Position numbers and translations under genes: made by a program
Assembly: GCF_019056395.1 (NCBI RefSeq)
Contig: NZ_CP077639.1
Location: 1,366,001-1,430,000 of the forward strand
Direction of reading: 5' to 3'
Source of the DNA: Terribacillus sp. DMT04
Lineage (GTDB): Bacteria; Bacillota; Bacilli; Bacillales; Amphibacillaceae
DNA: 64,000 bases
The notes under the pieces: model-generated
The model's input: the letters and a program-made list of their open reading frames with translations, nothing else
Told to the model about the DNA's origin: nothing
The model's database searches: none
Shown: in pieces, positions 6,128 to 52,467 of the stretch
Layout: the number at the start of each line of letters is the position of its first letter
Position numbering within the stretch: position 1 is the stretch's first letter

Positions 6128-6403
6128 ATGTTGACAAAACGTCAGGGGATCGTCGTATGGTTCCAGCATATGAAAAATATAAAGCAGCTGAAACGGCACG
6201 GACACTTGGTCTTTGTTTCCAAAAAGCAAAAGTATGCCATGATTTATGTAAACATGGAGGAAGCAGAAGAAAAAGAAGCAGTATTGCAAAGACTGCCGTT
6301 CGTATCTAAAACAGCGTTATCATACCGTCCATTTGTACGCACAGATTTTGAGAATGCAAAACAGGATAAAGCAAAAGAATACGATTATAAAATCGGTATA
6401 TAA
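6128..6403 (+). CDS. ylbG: YlbG family (DUF2129) protein
   Basis: 91 aa from the ATG at 6128, preceded by GCGAGGAA. The conserved features of DUF2129 are visible: RQGIVVWFQHMKNIKQLKRHGHL and YAMIYVNMEEAE, then FVSKTALSYRPF. It is a small soluble protein of unknown function, nearly always next to ylbF and rsmD in Bacillaceae. It has its own terminator immediately after the stop codon. A longer open frame starting upstream inside ylbF is not credible as a start. Confidence 0.85.
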   Translation: MLTKRQGIVVWFQHMKNIKQLKRHGHLVFVSKKQKYAMIYVNMEEAEEKEAVLQRLPFVSKTALSYRPFVRTDFENAKQDKAKEYDYKIGI

Positions 6404-6441
6404 AAAAAGCCTGCAGGGAATAGCCCTGCAGGCGCCTTTTG
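6404..6441 (+). terminator. Intrinsic terminator after ylbG
   Basis: GCCTGCAGGG at 6409-6418 pairs perfectly with CCCTGCAGGC at 6424-6433 across a 5-nt loop. An A run precedes it and GCCTTTTG follows, so it may work in both directions. Confidence 0.85.
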
Positions 6442-6616
6442 TTTCCGATGAAAACAAACAGGCAAAGGGAGAGGAGAAACCGGAGGAAGAGCTTATGGGG
6501 AAACGTAAGTCTTCTCCGTGTTCATGAAGCAGCTATAAGCGTGATAGCCGCTTCAGTAGTACAGTATGTACCGGCTTTAGCAGGATTATACATCGTTTTT
6601 GAAGGAGTGCAAAGCA

Positions 6617-27992: not shown

Positions 27993-28973
27993 ATGAACGT
28001 GGCACTATTACTTGTGACAATTGCGGTAGCATTCATCGTCACCGTCCTTATTTCTCCAATAGTCATACCATTTCTACGCAGATTGAAATTCGGTCAGAGT
28101 ATTCGTGAGGAAGGACCTAAATCACATATGAAAAAGTCGGGTACACCGACAATGGGCGGCGTGATGATTATCATCAGCATTGTCGTCTCAACATGGATTA
28201 TGCATGCAATCGGAGGAATCCAGATTAGTCTGGAAACATGGCTTCTTTTGTTTGTACTAGTCGGGTATGGCTTGCTTGGATTCCTGGATGATTACATCAA
28301 AGTTGCAATGAAGCGCAACCTTGGGCTGACATCCAAACAAAAAATGCTTGGACAAATTATAATTGCAATCGTTTTTTATGGATTGCTTCGCTACAATGAT
28401 TTCGGTACTTACATACAAATTCCTGGAACATCGATTCAATGGGATCTAGGCTGGGGTTATTTCTTCTTAATCCTTGTTATGCTGGTTGGTGCATCCAACG
28501 CAGTTAACTTGACCGATGGACTGGACGGACTGCTTGCAGGTACCGCAGCAATTGCTTTTGGAGCATTTGCTGTTGTCGCGTATTATGATGTACAACAAAC
28601 GCAAGTGACAGTATTTGCTTTGGCAGTTGTCGGCGCTTTGCTAGGTTTCCTTGTGTTTAATGCCCATCCTGCGAAAGTCTTTATGGGAGACACAGGCTCA
28701 CTAGGACTTGGCGGGGCAATTGCTGCTGTTGCCATTCTGACGAAAATGGAGATTTTGCTAATCGTAATCGGCGGTGTGTTTGTTATTGAAACACTTTCTG
28801 TCATGATTCAGGTAATCTCGTTTAAGACAACAGGTAAACGGGTCTTTAAGATGAGTCCGCTTCACCACCATTATGAATTGTCTGGATGGTCCGAATGGCG
28901 TGTTGTAACGACCTTCTGGGCTGTAGGACTATTATTCGCTGTTATCGGCGTGTACATGAAGGTGGGATTATGA
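27993..28973 (+). CDS. mraY: Phospho-MurNAc-pentapeptide transferase MraY
   Basis: 326 aa integral membrane protein of about ten helices, with AAAGGAGG before the ATG. Transfers phospho-MurNAc-pentapeptide to undecaprenyl phosphate, giving lipid I. Signature loops are present: LDDYIK (Mg-binding Asp pair), NLTDGLDGL and the HHHYE segment ([12 protein letters not shown]). The TGA stop overlaps the tandem ATGs of murD. Confidence 0.97.
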
Positions 28974-30325
28974 TGCGAGATTTTGAGACGCTATTCCCAT
29001 ATAAACGCGTACTTGTTCTTGGTTTGGCGAAGAGCGGCTTCGCTGCTGCCAGTACCCTGCTAGCGCATGGTCGCAATGTACGCGTTAGTGACCTAAATGC
29101 TTCCAATCAGGATGAATTAGTAACCATTCTGGAGCAAAAGGGAGCGGAAGTGAAGCTTGGTGTGCAGGAAGTTGATCTCCTCGATGGTATGGATGTTCTA
29201 ATCAAGAATCCGGGTATCCGTTACGAAAATTTGATTGTACAGACAGCGATGGAACGAAATATTCCAGTATTGACAGAGGTAGAACTGGCTGGCTTGCTTC
29301 ACAAAGGAACACTTATCGGGATTACTGGTTCGAACGGTAAAACGACAACAACAACACTTGCATATGAAATGCTAAAAGAAAGTCAAGTGCGTACATATGT
29401 AGCAGGCAATATCGGCACGGCAGCATCCGAAGTGGCAGATAAAACAAACGAAGATGATCGGCTTGTTTTGGAGCTCTCCTCATTCCAGCTGCAAGGAATT
29501 GATCAATTCAGACCTCATATTGCCGTTATGCTGAATATTTTTGAGGCTCACTTAGATTACCATCATTCATTAGAGAACTATGAACAAGCGAAAGCAAATA
29601 TTTTCCGCAACCAAGATGCGGGAGATTATCTTATTTATAATGCAGAGGATGAGCGTTTGCAGCATATTGTCAAAGATGCCAAAGCGACGCTTGTTCCTTT
29701 CTCTGGTTCCAGACAGCTTGCTGACGGGGCTTGGTATGATGAAACACATGTCTATTTTAAAGACGAAGCCGTAGCGGCTATCGACGATATTCTGCTTGTA
29801 GGCGGCCATCAGCTGGAGAATATTCTTGCAGCAATCGCTGCTGCAAAGCTTGCTGGAGCTACAAATGAAGGCATTCAGCACGTATTGAAATCTTTCTCAG
29901 GTGTAGAACATCGACTGCAGTATATCAAGCATCTGAACGGCAGAGCATTTTATAATGATTCCAAGGCTACGAACATATTGGCTACGTCTAAAGCTTTATC
30001 AGCATTTGAGCAGCCGACGATTCTGCTTGCTGGCGGATTGGATCGCGGTAATACGTTTGAGACACTTGTCCCATTCATGGAACATGTGAAAGCTTTAGTC
30101 GTATTCGGTGAAACAGCTGAAAAGCTTCGGGAAACTGCTTATCTGGCAGGTATAGAGCTTATTGAGTATGTGGAAGACGTCAAAGAAGCTGCAGAAGCCG
30201 CTTATCGTCTATCGGAGAGCGGCGATGTGATCCTGCTGTCACCTGCATGTGCAAGCTGGGATCAGTACAGAACATTTGAAGAAAGAGGAAACATGTTTGT
30301 TGAAGCGGTGCATACATTAGAGTAG
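28973..30325 (+). CDS. murD: UDP-MurNAc-L-alanine:D-glutamate ligase MurD
   Basis: 450 aa from the second of two adjacent ATGs (28970, 28973); the second is better spaced from AAGGTGG. Adds D-Glu to UDP-MurNAc-L-Ala. N-terminal Rossmann region VLGLAKSGFAAA, P-loop GITGSNGKTTTTT, and C-terminal YNDSKATNILAT are all intact. Overlap with mraY suggests coupled translation. Confidence 0.96.
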   Translation: MRDFETLFPYKRVLVLGLAKSGFAAASTLLAHGRNVRVSDLNASNQDELVTILEQKGAEVKLGVQEVDLLDGMDVLIKNPGIRYENLIVQTAMERNIPVLTEVELAGLLHKGTLIGITGSNGKTTTTTLAYEMLKESQVRTYVAGNIGTAASEVADKTNEDDRLVLELSSFQLQGIDQFRPHIAVMLNIFEAHLDYHHSLENYEQAKANIFRNQDAGDYLIYNAEDERLQHIVKDAKATLVPFSGSRQLADGAWYDETHVYFKDEAVAAIDDILLVGGHQLENILAAIAAAKLAGATNEGIQHVLKSFSGVEHRLQYIKHLNGRAFYNDSKATNILATSKALSAFEQPTILLAGGLDRGNTFETLVPFMEHVKALVVFGETAEKLRETAYLAGIELIEYVEDVKEAAEAAYRLSESGDVILLSPACASWDQYRTFEERGNMFVEAVHTLE

Positions 30326-30361
30326 GGGCTTGTCCTGCTCAGCCGCTTCGCTGCATGCGGA

Positions 30362-30393
30362 CCCCCAATTCCAATCAAGGAAATGGGGTTTTT
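30362..30393 (+). terminator. Terminator-like hairpin overlapping the spoVE translation start
   Basis: CCCCAATTCC at 30363-30372 pairs with GGAAATGGGG at 30379-30388 (one mismatch), followed directly by TTTTT. The right arm contains AAGGAAATGGGG, the only candidate ribosome site for spoVE, and the T run ends two bases before its TTG. The structure could end murD transcripts or hide the spoVE ribosome site. Confidence 0.55.
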
Positions 30394-30395
30394 CT

Positions 30396-31499
30396 TTGCG
30401 TAAAAGTAATCTTCCAAAGACGGACTGGCTGTTGCTATTCTCTATTGGTGGTTTGCTGACAGTCGGTATCATTATGGTTTACAGTGCTTCAGCAATTTGG
30501 GCGGGTTATAAATTCGATGACAGTTTCTTCTTTGCCAAGCGACAGTTGTTGTTTGCTGGAGTAGGGCTGGCTGCCATGCTGCTCATCTCCAGGGTGCATT
30601 ATGAGAATTGGCGCCGATATGCGAAAGTGCTTCTGCTGATTTGTTTCCTTTTGCTTATTGCTGTGCTCATACCAGGTATCGGAATGGTGCGGGGCGGAGC
30701 ACGAAGCTGGATTGGAATCGGAGCATTCAGTATTCAGCCTTCTGAATTTACGAAGCTAGGCTTGATCATCTATTTAGCCGTCTATCTATCAGCCAAACAG
30801 AAGTATATTACTTCCTTGAAGCAAGGGTTTCTTCCTTCGCTGCTGCTTGTCTTTACCGCATTCGGAATGATTATGCTTCAGCCTGACCTTGGAACAGGCG
30901 TAGTCCTTGTACTCACCTGTATGGTAATGATTCTCGTTAGCGGGGCGAGGATTTCCCATTTTGTCGGACTAGGCGTGCTGGGAGCAGGGGCTTTTGCAGC
31001 CTTAATCTTGTCAGCTCCTTATCGAATTAAGCGTATAACCGCTTTCTTGGATCCTTGGGAAGATCCGCTGGGAGAAGGGTTCCAAATCATTCAATCGCTG
31101 TACGCTATTGGACCAGGAGGGCTTATGGGGCTAGGTTTAGGAAACAGTTTGCAAAAATTCTTTTATTTACCTGAACCGCAAACAGATTTTATTTTTGCTA
31201 TTTTGGCCGAAGAACTTGGTTTCATCGGCGGAGCTGGTGTGATGCTTTTATTCCTGCTGTTTTTGTGGCGGGGAATTCAAGTTGCGCTGCGTGCACCTGA
31301 TGGATTCAGCAGTCTGCTAGCCCTAGGGATTACAGGGATGATTGCCATCCAGGCAATGATAAATATCAGCGTCGTCACCGGATTGATTCCTGTGACCGGC
31401 ATAACCCTACCATTTTTAAGTTATGGAGGGTCCTCGCTGACACTGACCTTAAGTTCTGTCGGGATACTACTGAATGTGAGCCGGTATAGTAAGCTTTAG
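30396..31499 (+). CDS. spoVE: SpoVE/FtsW-type SEDS peptidoglycan glycosyltransferase
   Basis: 367 aa from the TTG at 30396 (MRKSNLPKTDW; B. subtilis SpoVE is 366 aa); a longer frame from 30330 encodes hydrophilic sequence with no ribosome site. Ten transmembrane helices; SEDS motifs GARSWIGIGAFSIQPSEF, LQPDLGTG and LPFLSYGGSS are present. Position after murD and pairing with SpoVD argue for SpoVE, the cortex enzyme, though the housekeeping FtsW cannot be excluded by sequence alone. Its own terminator follows. Confidence 0.9.
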   Translation: MRKSNLPKTDWLLLFSIGGLLTVGIIMVYSASAIWAGYKFDDSFFFAKRQLLFAGVGLAAMLLISRVHYENWRRYAKVLLLICFLLLIAVLIPGIGMVRGGARSWIGIGAFSIQPSEFTKLGLIIYLAVYLSAKQKYITSLKQGFLPSLLLVFTAFGMIMLQPDLGTGVVLVLTCMVMILVSGARISHFVGLGVLGAGAFAALILSAPYRIKRITAFLDPWEDPLGEGFQIIQSLYAIGPGGLMGLGLGNSLQKFFYLPEPQTDFIFAILAEELGFIGGAGVMLLFLLFLWRGIQVALRAPDGFSSLLALGITGMIAIQAMINISVVTGLIPVTGITLPFLSYGGSSLTLTLSSVGILLNVSRYSKL

Positions 31500-31566
31500 T
31501 TTTCTCTATTAGTTTTCGTTTCAAAGTTAGCTGTGTAGATTCCTTCTTAAGTTTGCCTCAAGTAAA

Positions 31567-31606
31567 AGTGCTTTTCCCTTACTAAATGAGTAAAGCGCTA
31601 TTTTTA
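31567..31606 (+). terminator. Intrinsic terminator after spoVE
   Basis: AGTGCTTT at 31567-31574 pairs with AAAGCGCT at 31592-31599 (one G-U pair), with an inner TTACT/AGTAA pairing, then ATTTTT. Confidence 0.65.
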
Positions 31607-31625
31607 AAATATTTGCACAATTGCA

Positions 31626-31654
31626 TTGACTTTCCTTTCCAGCCCACGTATCAT
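31626..31654 (+). promoter_or_regulatory. Sigma-A promoter of the SAM-riboswitch operon
   Basis: TTGACT at 31626-31631 and TATCAT at 31649-31654 with a 17-bp spacer. The expected start, about 31661, is 13 nt before the riboswitch. Confidence 0.8.
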
Positions 31655-31673
31655 GTAAATTAATTTCATATAG

Positions 31674-31831
31674 TTCTTATCAAGAGAAGCCGAGGGACTG
31701 GCCCGTTGAAGCTTCAGCAACCTCTGACACTGTCAGAAAGGTGCTAAATCCAGCAAGATTAATTTCTTGGAAGATAAGAGTGCGGACGATTTCTCAAAGC
31801 TCTCTTTTCTTCGGAAAAGAGAGTTTTTTTC
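31674..31831 (+). promoter_or_regulatory. SAM-I (S-box) riboswitch with leader terminator
   Basis: The aptamer spans about 31674-31780. P1 is CTTATC / GATAAG; the conserved core GAGGGACTGGCCCG, CAGCAACC and AAGGTGCTAAATCC is present in canonical order. It is followed by a perfect 10-bp hairpin (CTCTCTTTTC-TTCG-GAAAAGAGAG, 31800-31823) and a T7 run. With SAM bound the terminator should form and the operon be off; SAM shortage, i.e. sulfur limitation, should turn it on. S-box identity is established from family consensus; regulation of these genes is inferred. Confidence 0.95.
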
Positions 31832-31868
31832 GTTTCGTCACTCTAACCCAAAAAGGAGGAGAAGAAAC

Positions 31869-32420
31869 ATGACCGACATTATTATTTTATCTGGCAGTCC
31901 ATCACGAAAGTCGAGGTCGCTGCTGGCGGCTGCTTATGCAGGTGAGCTGGCGAAGCAGCAAGGCTACACAGCAGAGGTAATCAGTATTACTGATTTTAAA
32001 CCAGAGGATTTAGTTTATGCGCGATTTGACAGTCCTGCAATTGTGGAGGCTGGCAAAGCAATTGAGACTGCGAAGGGTCTCATTATTGCATCGCCGGTTT
32101 ACAAGGCTTCTTATACAGGGGTGCTGAAGGCGTTACTGGACGTGCTGCCTCAAGGTGCTTTTACGAACAAACCTGTACTCCCGATTATGACAGGTGGAAG
32201 CCCAGCACATCTGCTAGCAATTGATTATGCATTAAAGCCGCTTATCGCTAATTTAAAGGGAGAGTCCTTGCAAGGCGTTTATATATGTGATCAGCACATT
32301 TTGAAAGACAATCCAACCGAGCCAATTACCGAAAAAGAAACAGCCGCCAGATTAAGGGAGCAGTCGAATCACCTTCTCGAAGCGATTCGGCGTAATGATG
32401 CTGTTAGCTTAGTGAAATAA
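31869..32420 (+). CDS. SsuE/MsuE-like NADPH-dependent FMN reductase
   Basis: 183 aa from the ATG at 31869 after AAAGGAGGAG. Flavodoxin-like fold: ILSGSPSRKSRS (FMN phosphate loop, residues 6-17) and SPVYKASYTGVLKALLDVLP, the signature of SsuE-type reductases that feed reduced FMN to two-component sulfonate monooxygenases. As the first gene after the SAM riboswitch and upstream of a flavin monooxygenase, it most likely supplies FMNH2 to the enzymes encoded at 33733 and 35128. No membrane segment. Confidence 0.9.
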   Translation: MTDIIILSGSPSRKSRSLLAAAYAGELAKQQGYTAEVISITDFKPEDLVYARFDSPAIVEAGKAIETAKGLIIASPVYKASYTGVLKALLDVLPQGAFTNKPVLPIMTGGSPAHLLAIDYALKPLIANLKGESLQGVYICDQHILKDNPTEPITEKETAARLREQSNHLLEAIRRNDAVSLVK

Positions 32421-32433
32421 AGGAGGAGAAGTA

Positions 32434-33714
32434 ATGCGGATTCTGTTAGCGGAAAAGAAGTTGTTCGGAATGCCGATTCAAATTATCGGCGGGCTGCTTG
32501 CAATACTGTTGTTTATGACTGGTGACGGAATTGAGCAGGCATTTTTATCAAAGTATGTTGTCGACATAGGTTTTTCTGCTAATCAATCTGCCATTATGTT
32601 CAGCGCTTATGGCATTGTACTTACATTTGCTTCTTGGCTTGCCGGAGTACTTGGTGAGGTAATTGGCCCGAAAAAAACAATGCTGTTAGGTCTCCTTACA
32701 TGGGTGCTTTTTGAAATAGGCTTTCTCTACTTCGGTCTGTATTTAGAAAGTTTTTCAATGATGGTGCTTATGTATGGGCTGCGCGGGTTCGGATATCCTT
32801 TGTTTGCTTTTGCTTTTATCGTGTGGATTGCTTATCGTACCGAAAAGCACAAGCTGGCAACGGCTATGGGTTGGTTTTTCTTTATGTTTGCAGGCGGGAT
32901 CGGGTTCCTTGGTTCGTACTACCCTAGCATTTTGCTGCCACTTGCCGGTGAAATGGCAACGCTGTGGAGTTCACTTATCTGGATTATTATCGGCGGTGCT
33001 TTAGGTGTGCTTCTTGTCGATGATAAAGACCGGCAGGGGATTAAGATTCAAGACCAGGTGAAGGGTAATAAATGGGCAGAAGCATTGAAAGGAATTACAA
33101 TTCTATGGGAAAGTCCGCGTGTTGCAGCAGGTGGTTTGCTGCGTGCTATTAATACAGCTGGCTGGTATGGATTTGTTGTTGTGATGCCAGGCTTCTTCAC
33201 TAGTTTCTTGGATATTACCACAAGCCAGTGGCTGCAGCTCTGGGCTGTCCAGTCTGTAAGTAATATGGTGGCAGGGGTATTATTTGGTATGCTCGGTGAC
33301 CGAATCGGCTGGCTTCGGGTAGTTCGCTGGTTTGGCTGTGTCGGTGCAACTGTTTGTTCTTTGCTTTATTACTATATTCCGGTTGCATTTGGGGCGAATA
33401 TCCCTATGCTCCTGCTGAACGCCATTCTTTTTGGAGCAGCTATTGCAGCTTTTGTACCGCTGTCAGCCATCTTGCCTACACTGGCACCGGCCAATCGAGG
33501 CGCAGCCATCTCTGTTCTTAATTTAGGTGCAGGAGCCAGTCAGTTTATCGGACCAGTACTTGTTGGTGTGCTTAACAATTACCTGGGGATTGTCGGTGTT
33601 GTGTGGGGATTTGCCATTATGTATGCGCTCAGTTTCTGTTTAACTGCATTTTTAACGCCAGCTGCGAAAGCACAGCTTCAACATACGACCAACGAAGGAC
33701 TTGCTGTTCGATAA
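32434..33714 (+). CDS. MFS transporter, RbtT/DalT/CsbX-like family
   Basis: 426 aa with about twelve transmembrane helices. The start KKLFGMPIQIIGGLLAILLF, GDGIEQAFLSKYVVD and YGLRGFGYPLFAFAF recall the polyol-permease (RbtT/DalT/CsbX) branch of the MFS. It is the second gene, 13 bp after the FMN reductase, and shares the S-box control, so it is expected to import the organosulfur substrate of the operon. The polyol-like family is unusual for sulfur uptake, where ABC systems are common; the substrate is unknown. Confidence 0.85.
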   Translation: MRILLAEKKLFGMPIQIIGGLLAILLFMTGDGIEQAFLSKYVVDIGFSANQSAIMFSAYGIVLTFASWLAGVLGEVIGPKKTMLLGLLTWVLFEIGFLYFGLYLESFSMMVLMYGLRGFGYPLFAFAFIVWIAYRTEKHKLATAMGWFFFMFAGGIGFLGSYYPSILLPLAGEMATLWSSLIWIIIGGALGVLLVDDKDRQGIKIQDQVKGNKWAEALKGITILWESPRVAAGGLLRAINTAGWYGFVVVMPGFFTSFLDITTSQWLQLWAVQSVSNMVAGVLFGMLGDRIGWLRVVRWFGCVGATVCSLLYYYIPVAFGANIPMLLLNAILFGAAIAAFVPLSAILPTLAPANRGAAISVLNLGAGASQFIGPVLVGVLNNYLGIVGVVWGFAIMYALSFCLTAFLTPAAKAQLQHTTNEGLAVR

Positions 33715-33732
33715 CCAAAGGAGGAATAACAA

Positions 33733-35124
33733 ATGACAAAGAAACGGATATATCTAAATGCTTTTGACATGAATTGTGTAGGGCACCAATCCCCTGGTTT
33801 ATGGACACATCCGAAAGATCAAGCGCATCGTTATAAAGATTTGGATTATTGGACAGAACTAGCGCAGATTTTAGAAAAAGGGCAGTTTGATACGCTGTTT
33901 TTAGCAGATGTGCTGGGAACGTATGATGTGTATCAAAACTCCAGGGAAGGAGCGGTACGCCAGGCAGCTCAAGTACCCGTTAATGATCCGCTGCTTGTTG
34001 TGCCGGCAATGGCGCAAGTTACCAAGCATTTAGGCTTTGGAGTTACTGCTTCTGTTACGTATGAGCATCCGTATAGCTTTGCGCGCCGCGTATCCACGTT
34101 GGATCATCTAACGAAGGGCAGGGTAGGCTGGAATATAGTCACTTCTTACTTAGAAAGCGCAGCTAAAAACTTGGGATTGGATACACAAATCAAACATGAT
34201 GAACGTTATAATATTGCAGAAGAATACGTAGAGGTTTGTTATAAGCTTTGGGAAGGCAGCTGGGAAGACGATGCCGTTGTGCGAGATACAGCTCGAAAGG
34301 TATATACCGATCCGGACAAAGTTCATGACATCCATCATAACGGCAAATATTATCAAGTCCCAGGAGCGCATCTATCTGAACCTTCCCCGCAGCGGACACC
34401 AGTACTCTTCCAAGCAGGTTCCTCACCTAAAGGCAGAGCGTTTGCTGCGAAGCACGCCGAATGTGTATTTATCAGTACGCCGACGGTTACCGTAACAAAA
34501 CGCTATGTAGAGAAGCTGCGGGAAGAGACAAAGCGTCAAGGCCGAAATCCGGAAGAGGTAAAAGTAATGAGCTTGTTCACACCAATTGTGGCAGAAACAG
34601 AAGAATCTGCCCAGCAAAAGCTGCAGGAGTACCGCAGCTATGCAAGCTATGAAGGCGGACTTGTTTTACTAGGCGGCTGGACTGGTATCGATTTCTCCGA
34701 CTATGACCCGGACGAAGAATTGCGTTTTGTGGAGAATGAAGCAATTCACTCAGCGGTAGAGACGTTTACTAAAATCGATCCGAACAAAAAATGGACTGTA
34801 CGTGAAGTTGCCGAATTTGTCGGTATCGGCGGGATTGGTCCAGTTGTCGCTGGAACACCTGAACAAGTTGCAGACGCGATGGAGGATTGGGTGGAACAAA
34901 CAGGTGTCGATGGATTTAATATTGCCTATGCTGTTACACCAGGAACGTTTAAAGATCTTGCTGACTACGTTGTGCCGATTTTACAAAAGCGGGGCAGAAT
35001 TAGAGAAAAATACGCAGGAGATACGTTGCGCGAAAATTTAAGCGGAACCAGCAGACTGCCCGACCGCCATCCTGCACGCCAAGCCGGGAAAGCAGTGCAG
35101 CAGTTTAGAAAGCAGACGGTGTAA
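33733..35124 (+). CDS. NtaA/SnaA/DszA-type FMN-dependent monooxygenase (LLM class)
   Basis: 463 aa. Luciferase-like TIM barrel of the long NtaA/SnaA/SoxA/DszA subfamily: KKRIYLNAFDMNCVGHQSPG at the start, YEHPYSFARRVSTLDHLTKGRVGWNIVTSY, and PVLFQAGSSPKGRAFAAKHAE are typical. Relatives (DszA, YtnJ, YxeK) cleave C-S or C-N bonds with FMNH2 and O2. With the SsuE-like reductase and the SAM riboswitch, a role in releasing sulfur from an organosulfur compound is likely; the exact substrate cannot be read from sequence. Confidence 0.88.
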   Translation: MTKKRIYLNAFDMNCVGHQSPGLWTHPKDQAHRYKDLDYWTELAQILEKGQFDTLFLADVLGTYDVYQNSREGAVRQAAQVPVNDPLLVVPAMAQVTKHLGFGVTASVTYEHPYSFARRVSTLDHLTKGRVGWNIVTSYLESAAKNLGLDTQIKHDERYNIAEEYVEVCYKLWEGSWEDDAVVRDTARKVYTDPDKVHDIHHNGKYYQVPGAHLSEPSPQRTPVLFQAGSSPKGRAFAAKHAECVFISTPTVTVTKRYVEKLREETKRQGRNPEEVKVMSLFTPIVAETEESAQQKLQEYRSYASYEGGLVLLGGWTGIDFSDYDPDEELRFVENEAIHSAVETFTKIDPNKKWTVREVAEFVGIGGIGPVVAGTPEQVADAMEDWVEQTGVDGFNIAYAVTPGTFKDLADYVVPILQKRGRIREKYAGDTLRENLSGTSRLPDRHPARQAGKAVQQFRKQTV

Positions 35125-35127
35125 CGT

Positions 35128-36315
35128 ATGCCATATAAAGCAGAGACCAAACGAGAAATAATTCAATCTTTAGTTGATGCTGTAGTGGAACAGGTGATAG
35201 CTCCTTCCGCAGACCAGCTGGATCGGGAAAAGATCTTTCCGAAAGCAAACATGCTGGCTCTTGCTGCAAAGAAATTAAATGGCATCTTGCTTCCCGAGCA
35301 TCTTGGCGGACTTGCTGCAGGCTATACCGAATTCTCTGTAATAGCAGAGAAAATTGCCGCGCATTGTCCATCCACTGGTCTTGTGTACACGATGCACATT
35401 GAAGCGGCGGATGCAATTTATCGGCATGGTACCGAGGCGCAGCACCAAAAGTGGCTGCTGCCAATACAAGAAGGAAAGTTTGGTACAACATCAACAAGTG
35501 AACGTATATCTGGCGGAAGATACTGGATTAATGCAAGCCGAGCGAAACGCACCCCAGGTGGCTATCAGCTCGATTTAGAAAAATCTTTTACGACGAGCAG
35601 TGGCTTTGCTGATTTTTATATCGTACAAACTGGATCGCCAGAAGCAGTGGTAACAAATGACTTAAGTTATTTTATAGTTGAAGGTACAGACCGTGGTATA
35701 AGCTGGGGAAAATGGGATGCACTTGGAGTCAGAGGCAATCATAGCGCATCACTGACATTTGCTGGCGTACGCGTACCTGAGGAAGATTTGCTTGGAGGTG
35801 AAGGAGGCGGCAGAAAGATAATCGAGCATAGTGTCGCTTACTTGCTTGGACTTGGCTCTGTATGGACCGGATTGGCCGGGGGGATTGTAGAAGAAATTAC
35901 AGCATATGCGAAGCGAAATCACCACCAAGATGTGAATAAAAGCCTCAGTGACTATCAAGTTATTCGTGGATTGCTTGCCAAAGCAGCTATTCAATACAAA
36001 GGATTGGCTGCTTGGCTGAAACAGCTTCGGTACGACATTGATTTGCAAGTTCAAAAAAAAGAAATGCTCACCCCCTCCACCCAGCAAGATTTACTGGCAT
36101 TTAAGATTCATGCTTCTGAAACAGTAAATGATATCGCCCAAATTGCTATGGATATTACCGGCGGTTATGGCTATAAGATTGGAAAGCTGGAACGATTTTA
36201 TCGAGATAGCAGAGCGGGAATGGTAATGGGACCATCCAATAATTTAGCGCGTGATTTACTTGCAAAACAACTTGTTGGAATAGCAAATAATTTATGGGAA
36301 GAAACCTCTACTTGA
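35128..36315 (+). CDS. Acyl-CoA-dehydrogenase-fold flavoenzyme, DszC/SfnB-like
   Basis: 395 aa with the three ACAD domains: the helical N-terminus, the beta domain with TSTSERISGGRYWINAS and WDALGVRGNHSASLTF, and the C-terminal helical domain ending DITGGYGYKIGKLERFYRDSRAG. In sulfur operons such proteins (DszC, SfnB) act as FMNH2-dependent monooxygenases rather than true dehydrogenases. It starts 3 bp after the monooxygenase stop with no strong ribosome site, so coupled translation is likely. A genuine dehydrogenase is the alternative. The last bases overlap the terminator stem. Confidence 0.82.
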   Translation: MPYKAETKREIIQSLVDAVVEQVIAPSADQLDREKIFPKANMLALAAKKLNGILLPEHLGGLAAGYTEFSVIAEKIAAHCPSTGLVYTMHIEAADAIYRHGTEAQHQKWLLPIQEGKFGTTSTSERISGGRYWINASRAKRTPGGYQLDLEKSFTTSSGFADFYIVQTGSPEAVVTNDLSYFIVEGTDRGISWGKWDALGVRGNHSASLTFAGVRVPEEDLLGGEGGGRKIIEHSVAYLLGLGSVWTGLAGGIVEEITAYAKRNHHQDVNKSLSDYQVIRGLLAKAAIQYKGLAAWLKQLRYDIDLQVQKKEMLTPSTQQDLLAFKIHASETVNDIAQIAMDITGGYGYKIGKLERFYRDSRAGMVMGPSNNLARDLLAKQLVGIANNLWEETST

Positions 36316-36332
36316 AAGAGGTTTCTTTCTTT
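36299..36332 (+). terminator. Terminator of the SAM-riboswitch operon
   Basis: GAAACCTCT at 36301-36309 pairs perfectly with AGAGGTTTC at 36317-36325, followed by TTTCTTTCT. The left arm lies inside the last codons of the preceding gene. Confidence 0.8.
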
Positions 36333-36744
36333 CTGAAAAGGGGTAGAAGAGTAGTTGGCTGTATGATGCAGCAATACTTCGCTCTGCCGTATTGTTTGAA
36401 TCGTTTAGGCTTGTATCTCTAATAAAGCTTGTGTTAATTAACCGTGCTAAACCAGTTGGCAAAAATTACTAAATGAAAATGCAGCCTTTGACCGTCAGAA
36501 CGGAAGGCGAACAATCGAATGTCATGGTAGAATGGGAAAGAAAATCCTGCAAGGAAGTTATCATTTCTTCGTCTTGGAGGAAGGAAATTGGCGGCTTCTT
36601 ATGTAATTAGGTAAAGAACCCCTTTTACTAGCGGATATTTGACAATTTAATGGATTGGAGACTACTTCCGCTATATGAATGTGTTATAATTTTATAATTA
36701 CAATACAAGCAGTTTTGAACTGTACAGCATAGGAAGAAGAGGAA
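36333..36744 (+). other. 412-bp intergenic region before divIB
   Basis: No credible gene. The only forward ATG frame of note (36472-36609, 45 codons) has no ribosome site. An extended -10 TGTTATAAT at 36682-36690 is the likely divIB promoter; TTGACA at 36639-36644 has no -10 at normal distance. In B. subtilis the DNA between spoVE and divIB holds murG and murB; I could not recognise a remnant of either by eye. Confidence 0.6.
36682..36690 (+). promoter_or_regulatory. Extended -10 promoter element of divIB
   Basis: TG-T-TATAAT, a perfect -10 with the TGn extension, about 55 bp before the divIB start codon. The -35 region is not conserved. Confidence 0.55.
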
Positions 36745-37566
36745 ATGAGCGAAAAGAAAAAAATTGTTTCCATCGAAGATCGTATCCCAAAATTAAAGCA
36801 AGCCAGAAAGAAAAAAGCAAATAGAAGACTAGTGTTCTATCTATCTATTTTCTTTGTACTGATTTCCATCATTGTTTACTTACAATCTCCATTAAGCGAT
36901 ATCCATCGTCTGAAGGTGGAGGGCAATGACTTTCTGTCTGATGAGGTCATTATCCAAAGCAGCGGTCTTACTGTTTCGGACAATATATGGCGAATTGATA
37001 AGGACAAAGCAATCAAGCAAATTCAGAAAAATGAAGAAGTCGAGAACGTCTCGATCAGCCGGGAATTTCCGGCAACTGTTACAATCCAAGTGGCGGAACT
37101 GGGCAGAGTTGGTTATCTGCAGCAGGACGGAAAATATCGTGCGCTGCTCGCCAATGGGAGCATTTCGGAGAAGGATTGGTCTCAGCCTAAATCAGATGCT
37201 CCGATACTTTATGGATTTTCTGATGATACGTATTTGGAGGGAATCGCCGAGGAGCTTGATCAGCTTCCAGTATCTATTACCCGGCTTATCTCTGAGATTC
37301 ACTATAAGCCAACGGAAGATAGTAAGTACGTCATCCAGTTGTTTATGAATGACGGGATGGAAGTGCAAGGAACAATTCGGACATTTGCCGACAATATGGA
37401 GGCTTACCCGAGTATCGCTGCGCAGCTTGATCCCGATGTGGATGGTGTGCTGCACATGGGGGCAGGTGTTTATTTTGAACCTGCTAAAAAGAAAAAGACG
37501 AATAAGTACAGAAATACCGATAATATTGTCGGTTTATGTAGAATAAACGTGCTATATGCGGTATAG
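36745..37566 (+). CDS. divIB: Cell division protein DivIB (FtsQ)
   Basis: 273 aa. A basic cytoplasmic tail (about 1-27), one membrane helix (about 28-46), then a POTRA domain beginning IHRLKVEGNDFLSDEVI and a beta domain. Binds FtsL-DivIC in the divisome. GAAGAAGAGGAA precedes the ATG. The C-terminus after FEPAKKKKTNK is an odd extra ~18-residue stretch ending LCRINVLYAV, hydrophobic and unlike the usual charged tail, perhaps the result of loss of an earlier stop. Position directly upstream of ftsA fits the dcw order. Confidence 0.93.
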   Translation: MSEKKKIVSIEDRIPKLKQARKKKANRRLVFYLSIFFVLISIIVYLQSPLSDIHRLKVEGNDFLSDEVIIQSSGLTVSDNIWRIDKDKAIKQIQKNEEVENVSISREFPATVTIQVAELGRVGYLQQDGKYRALLANGSISEKDWSQPKSDAPILYGFSDDTYLEGIAEELDQLPVSITRLISEIHYKPTEDSKYVIQLFMNDGMEVQGTIRTFADNMEAYPSIAAQLDPDVDGVLHMGAGVYFEPAKKKKTNKYRNTDNIVGLCRINVLYAV

Positions 37567-37640
37567 TCGAGTCAAATACTAGCGTAGTAGGCAAAATTCT
37601 TACAGAATGTCGCTTTTTCGGCAAATTCCCTTGTGAAATT

Positions 37641-37649
37641 TGTTATAAT
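37641..37649 (+). promoter_or_regulatory. Extended -10 promoter element of ftsA
   Basis: TG-T-TATAAT again, about 90 bp before the ftsA start codon; no clear -35 at 17-18 bp. It gives ftsAZ a promoter separate from divIB, as in B. subtilis, where several promoters precede ftsA. Confidence 0.55.
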
Positions 37650-37737
37650 TATGCGTGTCTGCACACAAATACAAAAGATGAGTTAAATTTAAAAGGATTT
37701 CTTGGCGACATGTCTCTAGGATTAGGAGGTGCCTTAC

Positions 37738-39021
37738 ATGAACAACAGTGAAATTTTAGTCAGCTTAGATGTAGGAACATCAAAAATTAAAGTGATTATT
37801 GGGGAAGTATTTCAAGACTCCCTTAACATAATCGGTGTCGGTACTGCAAAATCGAATGGTCTGAAAAAAGGCGCCATCGTCGATATTGATCAGACTGTCC
37901 AATCGATCCGCAATGCTGTAGAACAAGCCGAGCGAATGGTCGGTATGCAAATTGAACGGGTAGTAGTAGGAGTCAATGGCAATCAGATTCAACTGCAGTC
38001 CTGTCATGGCGTAGTAGCGGTGTCCAGTGAAACAAGAGAGATTGATAATGAAGATATTTCTCGCGTAATGGAAGCAGCACAGGTTGTATCCATTCCTCCT
38101 GAACGTGAAATTGTGGATGTCATTCCAAAGCAGTTCATCGTGGATGGCCTAGATGGAATAAATGATCCGCGCGGCATGCTCGGTGTACGGCTGGAAATGG
38201 AAGGGACCATCATTACGTGTTCTCGTACAGTCTTACATAATCTATTAAAATGCGTCGAGAAAGCCAACCTAGAAGTAATGGATATATGTCTGCAGCCTTT
38301 AGCTGCAGGGGCTGTTGCCCTTTCAGAAGATGAAAAGAACCTAGGTGTTGGCTTAATTGACATAGGCGGAGGCAATACGACTGTTTCTGTTTTTGGAAAT
38401 GGTCAGCTTATGTCTACAAGCGTTGTTCCGCTTGGCGGCGAAAATATTAGCAAAGACATATCTATTGGTCTTAAAACATCCTCAGAAGAAGCAGAGGAAA
38501 TTAAGCTGGGATATGGACATGCTTTCTATGACGATGCCAGAGAAGACGAGACGTTTGAAGCATCCATGATTGGCAGCAATAAGAAACAAACACTTTCACA
38601 GATTGATGTAGCGGACATTGCGGAAGCTCGAGTGGAAGAAATTTACGCTTATGCAGATAGTGAAATCAAGCGAATGGGCTTCCCTGAACTGCCTGGAGGC
38701 TATGTGCTGACAGGCGGAACTGCGATGATGCCAGGGATGCTTGAGCTGGCACAAGACTGCTTCCAGGCGAACGTCAGATTGGCAATTCCAGATTACCTAG
38801 GCGTGCGTGAACCCCAATTTACAAGTGCTGTCGGAATCTTGCAATTTGCTTATCGTAATGCGAGAATACAAGGGAAGGAAATCTTCTCAGCAGTTTCTGA
38901 GGGAGATTTTGACGAGCCGGAGAAAAGACCGGCAAAACCTGCTAAATCACAAAAGAAAAAAGGCGAAGAGAAAAAGAAAGAATCAGGGTTTGCTAACCTG
39001 TTCAAGTACTTTTTCGATTAA
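37738..39021 (+). CDS. ftsA: Cell division protein FtsA
   Basis: 427 aa from the ATG at 37738, 8 bp after AGGAGG; a GTG at 37729 is part of the ribosome site. Actin-like ATPase with SLDVGTSKIKVIIGE (phosphate 1), LIDIGGGNTTVSVF (phosphate 2) and LTGGTAMMPGM (adenosine). The C-terminal amphipathic helix FANLFKYFFD is the membrane-targeting sequence that tethers FtsZ polymers. A Lys-rich linker precedes it. Confidence 0.97.
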   Translation: MNNSEILVSLDVGTSKIKVIIGEVFQDSLNIIGVGTAKSNGLKKGAIVDIDQTVQSIRNAVEQAERMVGMQIERVVVGVNGNQIQLQSCHGVVAVSSETREIDNEDISRVMEAAQVVSIPPEREIVDVIPKQFIVDGLDGINDPRGMLGVRLEMEGTIITCSRTVLHNLLKCVEKANLEVMDICLQPLAAGAVALSEDEKNLGVGLIDIGGGNTTVSVFGNGQLMSTSVVPLGGENISKDISIGLKTSSEEAEEIKLGYGHAFYDDAREDETFEASMIGSNKKQTLSQIDVADIAEARVEEIYAYADSEIKRMGFPELPGGYVLTGGTAMMPGMLELAQDCFQANVRLAIPDYLGVREPQFTSAVGILQFAYRNARIQGKEIFSAVSEGDFDEPEKRPAKPAKSQKKKGEEKKKESGFANLFKYFFD

Positions 39022-39080
39022 GACAGACATGATTCTTCCATTAATACAGGAAGAACGATTGTAAATAGGAGGACGTTAAG

Positions 39081-40253
39081 ATGTTAGAATTTGACACAAA
39101 TATGGAAACATTAGCAACGATAAAAGTCATCGGCGTCGGCGGTGGCGGCAGCAATGCCGTTAACCGGATGATTGAGCATGGCGTCCAAGGCGTAGAATTC
39201 ATCGCAGTAAACACAGATTCTCAAGCATTGAATCTTTCCAAAGCGGATGTGAAAATGCAAATTGGTGCAAAACTCACACGCGGTCTTGGTGCTGGTGCAA
39301 ATCCTGAGGTTGGCCGAAAAGCAGCAGAAGAAAGCAAAGAACAGATCCAAGAAGCACTTCAAGGTGCTGATATGGTCTTTGTAACAGCTGGTATGGGTGG
39401 CGGAACTGGTACAGGTGCTGCACCTGTCATTGCACAAGTAGCGAAAGAGCTTGGTGCACTTACTGTCGGTATCGTAACCCGTCCGTTCTCCTTTGAGGGG
39501 CGGAAACGCCAAACACAAGCACTTGCTGGAACGGAAGCATTAAAAGGCAGCGTGGATACACTAATCGTTATCCCGAATGACCGTTTGCTGGAAATCGTTG
39601 ATAAAAACACACCAATGCTGGAAGCATTCCGTGAAGCGGATAATGTATTGCGTCAAGGTGTACAAGGTATTTCTGAATTGATTGCTGTACCTGGATTGAT
39701 CAACGTTGACTTTGCTGACGTGAAGACAATCATGGCGGACAAAGGTTCTGCTCTTATGGGTATTGGTATTGCCACTGGTGAGAGTCGTGCAACAGAGGCT
39801 GCCAAGAAGGCGATCAGTTCTCCATTGCTGGAAACATCCATCGATGGTGCGCATGGTGTCTTGATGAATATTTCCGGTGGCGCGAACCTGAGCTTGTATG
39901 AAGTGCAGGAAGCTGCTGACATCGTGACGAGTGCAGCTGACCAAGAAGTTAACGTTATTTTCGGTTCTGTAATCAATGAAGATCTAAAAGATGAAATCGT
40001 CGTAACAGTTATTGCTACAGGATTTGATGAGACGCAGATTCAGCAAGCAATGAATCAGCCGCGTCCAAAAGCACGCCCTGTACAAAAAGAAACACAAAGT
40101 ACAGAGCAGCAGCAGCCTGCAAACACAGAAAGAAGAAGAGAGCGGGAAGAGCTTCGCCGTGAGACACCTTCTTCTTCACCGCAGCCGCGTAAGCAGGAAG
40201 AGGAAACACTTGATATTCCTACATTCCTTCGCAACCGCAATCGCAGAAGATAA
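39081..40253 (+). CDS. ftsZ: Cell division GTPase FtsZ
   Basis: 390 aa, AGGAGG before the ATG. Tubulin-like: [11 protein letters not shown] at the N-terminus, the GTP-binding glycine loop [12 protein letters not shown] at about 103-114, and the T7 loop [12 protein letters not shown] Gln/Arg/Glu-rich linker (about 316-370) leads to the conserved C-terminal peptide [13 protein letters not shown] that binds FtsA, SepF, ZapA and others. Forms the Z ring. Terminated right after the gene. Confidence 0.98.
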
Positions 40254-47099: not shown

Positions 47100-47357
47100 A
47101 CATGACTCAGATAAAAAGACTGTGATCGGGACAGTAAGAAGTCCATACCGACTGAAGCGAGCCAGGGAAGGTGAGAGCCTGGTGCGGTATTTCTTCCGAA
47201 CATCACCCGTTAGTTTCCATTCGAACCGCAAGCAGTAGAAATGGACGTCTCATTCACGTTACGAATTCGAGTGGATAGAAGTAATATACTTTTGTCTATA
47301 AGGGTGGTACCGCGAGTCTCTCTCGTCCCTTTGGGATGATGAGGGGCTCTTTTTATT
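47100..47357 (+). promoter_or_regulatory. T-box leader of ileS (Ile specifier)
   Basis: Stem I begins near 47105 with the AGTAAGAAGT motif. ATC at 47202-47204 (GAACATCACC) is the best candidate specifier codon, matching isoleucine. The T-box proper AGGGTGGTACCGCG is at 47301-47314 and pairs alternatively with the terminator, whose stem CTCGTCCC / GGGATGATGAG is followed by GGGGCTCTTTTTATTT. Uncharged tRNA-Ile should stabilise the antiterminator and permit ileS expression. It accounts for most of the 353-bp gap. Confidence 0.93.
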
Positions 47358-51674: not shown

Positions 51675-51784
51675 AATAAGAACCTTTAAGACAGTCCAGA
51701 GAGGCTGATAAGGAAGCGGAGAAGAACGGGATACAAGTGTGTATCTATGCCCCTTATTACCTCATGGTGATAAGGGGTTTTTTC
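51675..51784 (+). promoter_or_regulatory. PyrR-dependent attenuator 1 (before pyrR)
   Basis: The PyrR binding loop AGTCCAGAGAGGCT is at 51694-51707 with flanking stem arms (ACCTTTAAGACAG.../...TGATAAGG). A terminator follows: CCCCTTAT-ACC / GGT-ATAAGGGG and TTTTTT (51748-51784). UMP-bound PyrR should stabilise the anti-antiterminator and stop transcription. Confidence 0.93.
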
Positions 51785-51788
51785 ATAG

Positions 51789-52352
<564 letters not shown>

Positions 52353-52355
52353 ATA

Positions 52356-52467
52356 GGACCTTTAATGGAAGTCCAGAGAGGCTTACAAGGTCGCAAGCAA
52401 CAACGTCGTCACGACTAGTGGCAGACGTGTGCCTCTTTGCGACCTACATCGCAAAGAGGCTTTTTTT
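52356..52467 (+). promoter_or_regulatory. PyrR-dependent attenuator 2 (between pyrR and pyrP)
   Basis: The binding loop AAGTCCAGAGAGGCTT lies at 52369-52384; the upstream GGACCTTTAATGG resembles the leader before pyrR. The terminator GCCTCTTTGC / GCAAAGAGGC (52431-52460) is perfect and followed by T7. Confidence 0.92.

Follow-up and report, generated by a model that had tools for sequence, protein, structure and literature searches.

A SAM-riboswitch-led operon of Terribacillus combines a DmoA-type monooxygenase with a glutamate-less protein of acyl-CoA-dehydrogenase fold and may release thiol sulfur for methionine synthesis

The window analysed here, a stretch of 64,000 nucleotides from Terribacillus sp. 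DMT04 (contig NZ_CP077639.1, positions 1,366,001 to 1,430,000), harbors at its positions 31,567 to 36,332 a four-gene operon that follows an S-adenosylmethionine (SAM) riboswitch, or S-box, and encodes a flavin mononucleotide (FMN) reductase, a transporter of the major facilitator superfamily (MFS), an FMN-dependent monooxygenase of the DmoA type and a protein with the acyl-CoA-dehydrogenase (ACAD) fold. The S-box-led four-gene operon is confirmed as real, and a role in sulfur metabolism is well supported for the clade to which the ACAD-fold protein belongs. As to what the four genes do, we see roughly an even chance that they dealkylate a thioether and release a thiol, probably methanethiol, for MetX and MetY under SAM-shortage control, a proposal founded on analogy to DmoA, CmoO/CmoJ and ScmK/YxeK. 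In this scheme, low SAM or methionine would lead the S-box to permit read-through of the leader terminator so that the four genes are made, and the SsuE-type reductase would provide FMNH2. The DmoA-type enzyme would hydroxylate the carbon adjoining the sulfur of a methylated thioether, or act on its sulfoxide, whereupon the C–S bond would break to yield a thiol, most likely methanethiol, and an aldehyde. The ACAD-fold enzyme, which lacks the catalytic glutamate, would most likely be a reduced-flavin S-oxygenase that turns the same substrate into the sulfoxide, a role modelled on the group D proteins Dms1-3 of Acinetobacter. The MFS protein would import the substrate or export the product, and MetX and MetY, themselves S-box-led, would fix the thiol directly into methionine with sulfite reductase unneeded. 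The substrate, both reactions, the methanethiol product and the role of the carrier are what we infer; the parts of the operon are observed.

All of these parts lie on the + strand. The S-box aptamer (31674..31780) matches the SAM-I model RF00162 with 102 bits (gathering score 44.4) and is the top-scoring of the 16 S-boxes detected in the genome; it is followed by the leader terminator (31796..31827), a 14-pair stem with a T run, and leader and terminator fold together with a z of -3.4. Gene 1 (31869..32420) encodes an SsuE-type NAD(P)H:FMN reductase (TIGR03567, 194.9 bits, cut-off 164.05), gene 2 (32434..33714) an MFS transporter of the RbtT/DalT/CsbX subfamily (TIGR00897, 482.3 bits, cut-off 375), gene 3 (33733..35124) a DmoA-type monooxygenase of the NtaA/DmoA family, group C, with a TIM barrel (TIGR03860, 601 bits, cut-off 279.7), and gene 4 (35128..36315) the ACAD-fold protein. 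The genes are close-set, and a closing terminator hairpin (36296..36330) is present in the fold of 36290-36345 (z -2.89), though a simple terminator scanner left it off its list. A preliminary description of this DNA had named a canonical S-box with leader terminator, an SsuE-like FMN reductase, an MFS transporter, a DszA/SnaA/NtaA-type monooxygenase and a closing terminator, and all of these are borne out. Its promoter fared less well: a sigma-70-type, promoter-like TTGACT-17-TATCAT (31626..31654) is aptly placed, but the region holds no more sites of this kind than chance predicts (6 seen, 7.8 expected).

Surveyed for co-occurrence, the four genes stand together under an S-box across Terribacillus. 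The operon is present in 9/10 genomes of the genus (the window's own and eight of the nine others searched), with the same four genes at the same place, and the S-box precedes it in all eight of the other Terribacillus loci that were fetched. In one Terribacillus genome, G007, the search with gene 4 matched distant relatives only. The closest named relative of gene 4 in a pattern scan, from which the window's own record was possibly excluded, is that of T. aidingensis at 94% identity. We know of no B. subtilis operon with this four-gene set.

By its sequence, gene 3 is a member of the NtaA/DmoA family with DmoA-type predicted binding residues: it is 57.0% identical (256/449) to Hyphomicrobium DmoA (PDB 6ak1), and 17 of the 20 DmoA binding residues that PMC9259527 lists are identical in it. 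Its identity to LadA is 56.5% (242/428), which raises the alternative of a LadA-type alkane hydroxylase whose link to sulfur is incidental. We consider this alternative very unlikely, since LadA His138 and His311, which we take to be important in LadA, are replaced by Tyr139 and Leu312 in gene 3, the operon is under S-box control and its sulfur neighbours are conserved. A tree of 46 proteins likewise places gene 3 in the DmoA group (support 98/95) and not in that of LadA, which is joined (99/96) by a second S-box-led monooxygenase of the same genome (L020); the root of this tree is unsure because one outgroup row sits within the LadA group.

Gene 4 had been described as DszC/SfnB-like, a name we reject on its profile scores, on the residues at the catalytic-glutamate position and on its branch in the tree; of the two enzymes taken for monooxygenases, profile comparison thus left gene 3 as DmoA-type and gene 4 outside DszC/SfnB. 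Its scores are 62.5 bits for SfnB (cut-off 430.9) and 51.7 bits for DszC (cut-off 850), and it reaches 192 bits with an acyl-CoA dehydrogenase model (cut-off 600). A pattern scan of contigs, built on the alignment of gene 4 with two short motifs, yielded 68 loci: 59 clade loci (L074-L132), with 40-94% identity to gene 4, and the weak matches L133-L141 at 26-28%. Clade hosts comprise Bacilli, Paenibacillus and its kin, methanotrophs, Bradyrhizobium, one Mucilaginibacter and some proteobacteria. Pseudomonas, whose sfnECR genes presumably include SfnC, is not among the 68 loci of this two-motif scan. In a tree of 120 proteins, which came from a short search and has long branches (among them the possibly broken ACAD of L132), 56 clade rows share one branch (SH-aLRT 99), 24 DszC/SfnB rows lie on a different branch (100), and 33 ordinary ACADs are also separate. 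At the position of the glutamate of short-chain acyl-CoA dehydrogenase (SCAD), the clade has Gly in 46 rows, Ala in nine and Ser in one, so that all 56 are without Glu; elsewhere, Glu is found in 32 of 33 ordinary ACADs, and the 24 DszC/SfnB rows have Asn (14) or Asp (10).

The neighbours of the clade point to sulfur. A gene for a luciferase-like monooxygenase (LLM) of the flavin-dependent type lies within 8 kb at 55/59 clade loci (49/53 without Terribacillus), against 0/20 ordinary ACAD loci and, counted apart, 0/9 weak loci; the 20 control loci are Bacilli related to the window, whereas the clade loci span phyla. Under an alternative clustering, 51 of 54 intact-gene loci have an LLM neighbour, 34 of them on the same strand within 400 bases. 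Further neighbours include SsuD, SfnG, DszC/SfnB, SsuE/MsuE and RibBA types, and in Paenibacillus there are genes similar to an HpaB-like one that was scanned at L220 (399.8 bits, below cut-off). The good support for a sulfur role of the clade comes from these LLM monooxygenases and sulfur-gene neighbours. When 398 genomes of the class were searched (own included), 19 matched gene 4 with an E of 1e-90 or lower, and the lowest-scoring of them, at about 330 bits, possibly falls outside the clade. In a plasmid collection, clade-level matches occur in Methylocystis only (three records at 44-45%; the next match is at 32%), and all three proteins are annotated 'acyl-CoA dehydrogenase family protein'. 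One of the Methylocystis plasmids (NZ_AP027144.1, L262) carries a compact cluster of sulfone type, with msuE-ribB-ACAD-ssuD opposite sfnG-clade ACAD-OmpW and an adjoining sigma-54 regulator.

The fold of gene 4 bears on a further alternative, in which the protein is truly coenzyme A (CoA)-dependent and acts as a dehydrogenase or desulfinase on a sulfur-containing acyl-CoA, with the monooxygenase working before or after it. Its AlphaFold model has the ACAD fold (pLDDT 87.5, pTM 0.90), the best solved Foldseek matches are SCAD, butyryl- and isovaleryl-CoA dehydrogenases (TMq about 0.85), the nearest solved sequences are also acyl-CoA dehydrogenases, and the 3-sulfinopropanoyl-CoA desulfinase model matches at 110.5 bits. 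We nevertheless judge CoA-dependence unlikely: the catalytic Glu is replaced in the whole clade, the desulfinase match falls short of its cut-off of 600, a desulfinase would give sulfite, and genes for a CoA ligase and an electron transfer flavoprotein are not among the four. An acyl-CoA route of the DmdC type, which we take to be a marine pathway, was rejected for gene 4 because the operon includes no CoA ligase gene and the catalytic Glu is missing.

The sulfur economy of the host genome (3.52 Mb in two contigs, rated 100% complete) argues for a product other than sulfite. Within this genome there is no match to the sulfite/nitrite reductase family PF01077 (NIR_SIR), which 11 of 14 control genomes match, B. 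subtilis included; no match to the 3'-phosphoadenosine-5'-phosphosulfate (PAPS) reductase family PF01507, matched by 14/14 controls; and no SsuD ortholog, the best relative having 29% identity and 63 bits. Across the genus, one of ten genomes matches PF01077, in a 209-amino-acid open reading frame (ORF) adjoining what appears by inspection to be a copper-type ATPase gene. Judged from its genes, this soil bacterium seems incapable of drawing on sulfate or sulfite. Because none of the three proteins was found, a sulfite-ending pathway would be of little use to it as a sulfur supply, and a thiol-releasing route fits better. The desulfurisation route put forward in the preliminary description thus survives as a role in sulfur acquisition and loses its 4S or sulfonate logic, which ends in sulfite, a product that could hardly serve a cell in which NIR_SIR, PAPS reductase and SsuD all went unmatched.

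The S-boxes of this genome outline where thiol sulfur might go. They precede metK, hom, metI-metC-methionine synthase, metX, metY and two sets of metNPQ, and also a carrier of the NhaC type, a permease for S-methylmethionine accompanied by homocysteine methyltransferase, and an aminopeptidase-like gene. Others stand before an iron alcohol dehydrogenase gene accompanied by one of the nitrilase family, before an M20 amidohydrolase gene joined by an ATP-binding cassette (ABC) transporter of oligopeptide type, and before four organosulfur units (several of these names were assigned by inspection, without a profile scan). The S-box-led MetY and MetX exceed their cut-offs (TIGR01326, 653.8 against 495.1 bits; NF001209, 372.6 against 331 bits). 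MetY (L030:4189-6048) has 619 residues, of which the models span about 20-450, leaving a C-terminal extension of about 170 residues. The S-box of the M20 unit is divergent from that of metI-metC (L022/L023), and this unit possibly serves salvage of N-acyl sulfur amino acids. The four organosulfur units comprise the window operon; L020, which is a lone second monooxygenase of DmoA/LadA type; L024, a DszC/SfnB-like ACAD (DszC 335.5 and SfnB 272.9 bits, both below cut-off); and L028, an SfnG-like monooxygenase (196.5 bits, below cut-off), each of the last three under its own S-box. Another gene of the NtaA/DmoA family shares 34% identity with gene 3, has more LLM genes and ABC transporter genes next to it, and is taken from its sequence for CmoJ/YtnJ-like; no S-box was detected in the stretch that holds it. 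Neither MtnK nor MtnA has a match in the host genome, although SAM metabolism should yield methylthioadenosine.

An alternative route, of the kind seen in the 4S, sfn, msu and ssu pathways, would S-oxidise a thioether, sulfone or sulfonate, cleave its C–S bond and finish with sulfite. It draws on some of these same genes: SsuE is above its cut-off, clade ACADs elsewhere adjoin SsuD, SfnG, MsuE and RibB, and the host has S-box-led SfnG-like and DszC-like genes as well as SsuABC-like genes after S-box metY, namely an SsuA-family protein (240 bits, cut-off 163.5) followed by permease and ATPase genes assigned by inspection. Given that sulfite reductase, PAPS reductase and SsuD are all unmatched in a genome that is rated complete, that gene 4 falls outside DszC/SfnB and that few genomes with an S-box-led DmoA have CysI, as described next, we think it improbable that the operon works in this way.

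The lack of sulfite reductase in a host with S-box-led MetX and MetY leads to the expectation that genomes with DmoA-type genes under S-box control tend to be those without sulfite reductase. At E 1e-140, 35/396 genomes of the class (own included) contain DmoA-like genes, at 50 places of which the own genome accounts for two. A place was labelled S-box if one preceded the gene in the same orientation and no gene of opposite orientation intervened. In the first labelling an S-box was upstream at 22/40 places and in 17/33 genomes; of the remaining eight places four have one, giving 26/46 judgeable places overall, with two left out in genome G141, which is unlabelled because both its places run into a contig end. 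The second place of G047 (L073) is without an S-box, and so are all 21 control loci, that is, L073 and 20 ordinary ACAD loci.

Once this first labelling was complete, the 33 genomes were searched for PF01077 (G444, with no S-box at its place, lies outside them). Any match at all occurs in 5/17 S-box genomes and 15/15 others (p 2.9e-5), and a sulfite reductase of CysI size in 2/17 and 15/15 (Fisher p 2.4e-7), where CysI size means frames of 530-630 residues, a limit chosen after the reductase search had been seen, the S-box labels having been set earlier. Counting G141 as lacking an S-box gives 16/16 for the others (p 1.5e-7). By genus the comparison is 2/11 against 10/10 (p 2.2e-4) and by family 2/8 against 7/7 (p 0.007); genus g76, which contains both S-box states, conforms to the rule. 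On the monooxygenase tree the S-box label switches at least six to seven times. The neighbourhoods differ as well: among the first 40 places, SsuD is near the DmoA-like gene at 0/22 S-box loci and 6/18 others (p 0.005), and DszC/SfnB at 2/22 and 9/18 (p 0.006), whereas MetQ/MetP/MetY, SsuA/SsuC and SsuE are not significantly commoner near S-box DmoA genes (p 0.29, 0.64 and 1.0).

Related loci link parts of the operon in other Bacilli. The order S-box-SsuE-DmoA was seen there five times, and at the loci L248 and L251, from two small genomes of one genus, MetY stands beside the DmoA-like gene, each with its own S-box. Near relatives of gene 4, an S-box was found at 15/68 loci, ahead of ACAD and DmoA-like genes: six of Terribacillus type, B. 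norwichensis, B. chungangensis, Bacillus sp. HF117, two Siminovitchia, Lederbergia (with two S-boxes, the second ahead of a lone DmoA-like gene) and three Bhargavaea. Several of those outside Terribacillus have MetQ- or MetQNP-type genes in place of the MFS gene.

The carrier brings in another alternative, salvage of a methylthio sugar, in which the monooxygenase, with a polyol-type MFS protein, would obtain methanethiol from 5-methylthioribose or a related compound and stand in for the Mtn pathway. MtnK and MtnA are unmatched, the MFS protein belongs to a pentitol-carrier subfamily, control senses SAM, and related carriers recur in Alicyclobacillus (54% identical to the window's, with DszC-like, DmoA-like and ACAD genes and without an S-box) and at L267 of G110 (41% identical, directly after an S-box-led DmoA gene). 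Yet the operon is without an enzyme for the sugar part, most other S-box-DmoA loci are without such an MFS gene and several have MetQNP-type carriers, and the subfamily name leaves the substrate of the carrier unfixed; we give this salvage a low probability.

Several points weigh against thiol-releasing dealkylation as the function of the operon and against the sulfite-reductase link. The same genome keeps the S-box-led DszC-like (L024) and SfnG-like (L028) genes, and the known routes of these families lead to sulfite; at many clade loci outside Terribacillus, too, the ACAD stands beside SsuD, SfnG or DszC types, in clusters of the sulfite kind. Two S-box genomes, G431 and G143, have a reductase of CysI size and three more have other NIR_SIR proteins. 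Among six independent pairs on the tree (L234, the G141 row, included as lacking an S-box), CysI runs opposite to the S-box in four to five and never the same way, with a median p of 0.0625; because the pairs are not significant, the association is only suggestive once relatedness is removed. The lost glutamate would be no proof of oxygenase chemistry, the predicted fold being closest to true acyl-CoA dehydrogenases. Within the portions of PMC13352529 available, none of the group C enzymes detectably oxidised dimethyl sulfide (DMS), and a figure legend has DmoAB making dimethyl sulfoxide, whereas PMC10863075 counts DmoA among C–S cleaving enzymes; because of these statements on DMS and dimethyl sulfoxide, likeness to DmoA leaves substrate and product unfixed.

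A wider generalisation is tentative and in our estimate rather doubtful: that Bacilli which lost sulfite reductase have repeatedly placed a DmoA-type dealkylase under a SAM riboswitch, passing from thioether to methanethiol to methionine and by-passing cysteine and sulfite, and that Terribacillus and some relatives add a new class of Glu-less ACAD-fold S-oxygenase, which also occurs in the sulfonate and sulfone clusters of Paenibacillus and methanotrophs. If it were true, the sulfur supply of these Bacilli would be built on methionine and methylated sulfur compounds, riboswitch-governed, and not on sulfate and cysteine; a function would be at hand for a clade that occurs in firmicutes, methanotrophs and rhizobia and at present goes by 'acyl-CoA dehydrogenase family protein'; and soil Bacilli that lack sulfite reductase would be predicted sinks for compounds such as dimethyl sulfide.

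The operon is inserted in a division and cell-wall cluster (27993-40253), with spoVE/ftsW before it and an FtsQ-type gene with a POTRA domain, then ftsA and ftsZ, after it; between spoVE/ftsW and the FtsQ-type gene there is no further long + strand ORF besides the operon. B. subtilis carries murG and murB at this position. Rfam matches in the window that reach their gathering scores are a ylbH leader (6400-6521), a T-box (47113-47333) and two PyrR binding sites (51679-51785 and 52355-52467).

A limited search of open-licence full texts surfaced nothing that describes the ACAD clade or the sulfite-reductase link. S-box control of dmoA is itself already known: in the passages seen of PMC4342826, a SAM riboswitch is listed for the dmoA and ssu genes of Bacillus methanolicus, and in strain MGA3 the entry with a riboswitch upstream of dmoA, an arrangement shared with the window, is labelled DMS degradation. 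There dmoA is tabled as a single gene, and those passages do not contain an ACAD partner, a mechanism or a link to sulfite reductase. Hyphomicrobium DmoA (6ak1) falls in the same tree group as gene 3 and differs in three of the listed binding residues; gene 3 is distinguished from it by S-box control, an ACAD-fold partner and a carrier. The 4S enzymes DszA and DszC form the same trio of LLM monooxygenase, ACAD-fold flavoprotein and FMN reductase, but the window ACAD is outside the DszC/SfnB group, a desulfinase-type gene is not among the four, and there is no evident use for sulfite. In the DMS-to-sulfite pathway of Acinetobacter (Dms1-3, MsuD, MsuC and SsuD), as far as the accessible text of PMC13352529 goes, one flavin reductase also serves group C and group D monooxygenases for sulfur supply, and the pathway terminates in sulfite, which the Terribacillus host seems unable to reduce. 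In B. subtilis, according to the excerpts of PMC10863075, CmoO and CmoJ dealkylate S-alkyl cysteine by sulfoxidation followed by C–S cleavage, with N-acetyl-S-alkyl cysteine as the substrate; if our reading is right, the window operon would be alike in its two flavoenzymes, in sulfoxidation followed by C–S monooxygenation and in freeing sulfur without sulfite. ScmK/YxeK is described as liberating N-acetylcysteine (PMC12757645, in part), and methanethiol as a methionine precursor taken by MetY (PMC7279501, in part), the step with which the proposed Terribacillus route would end.

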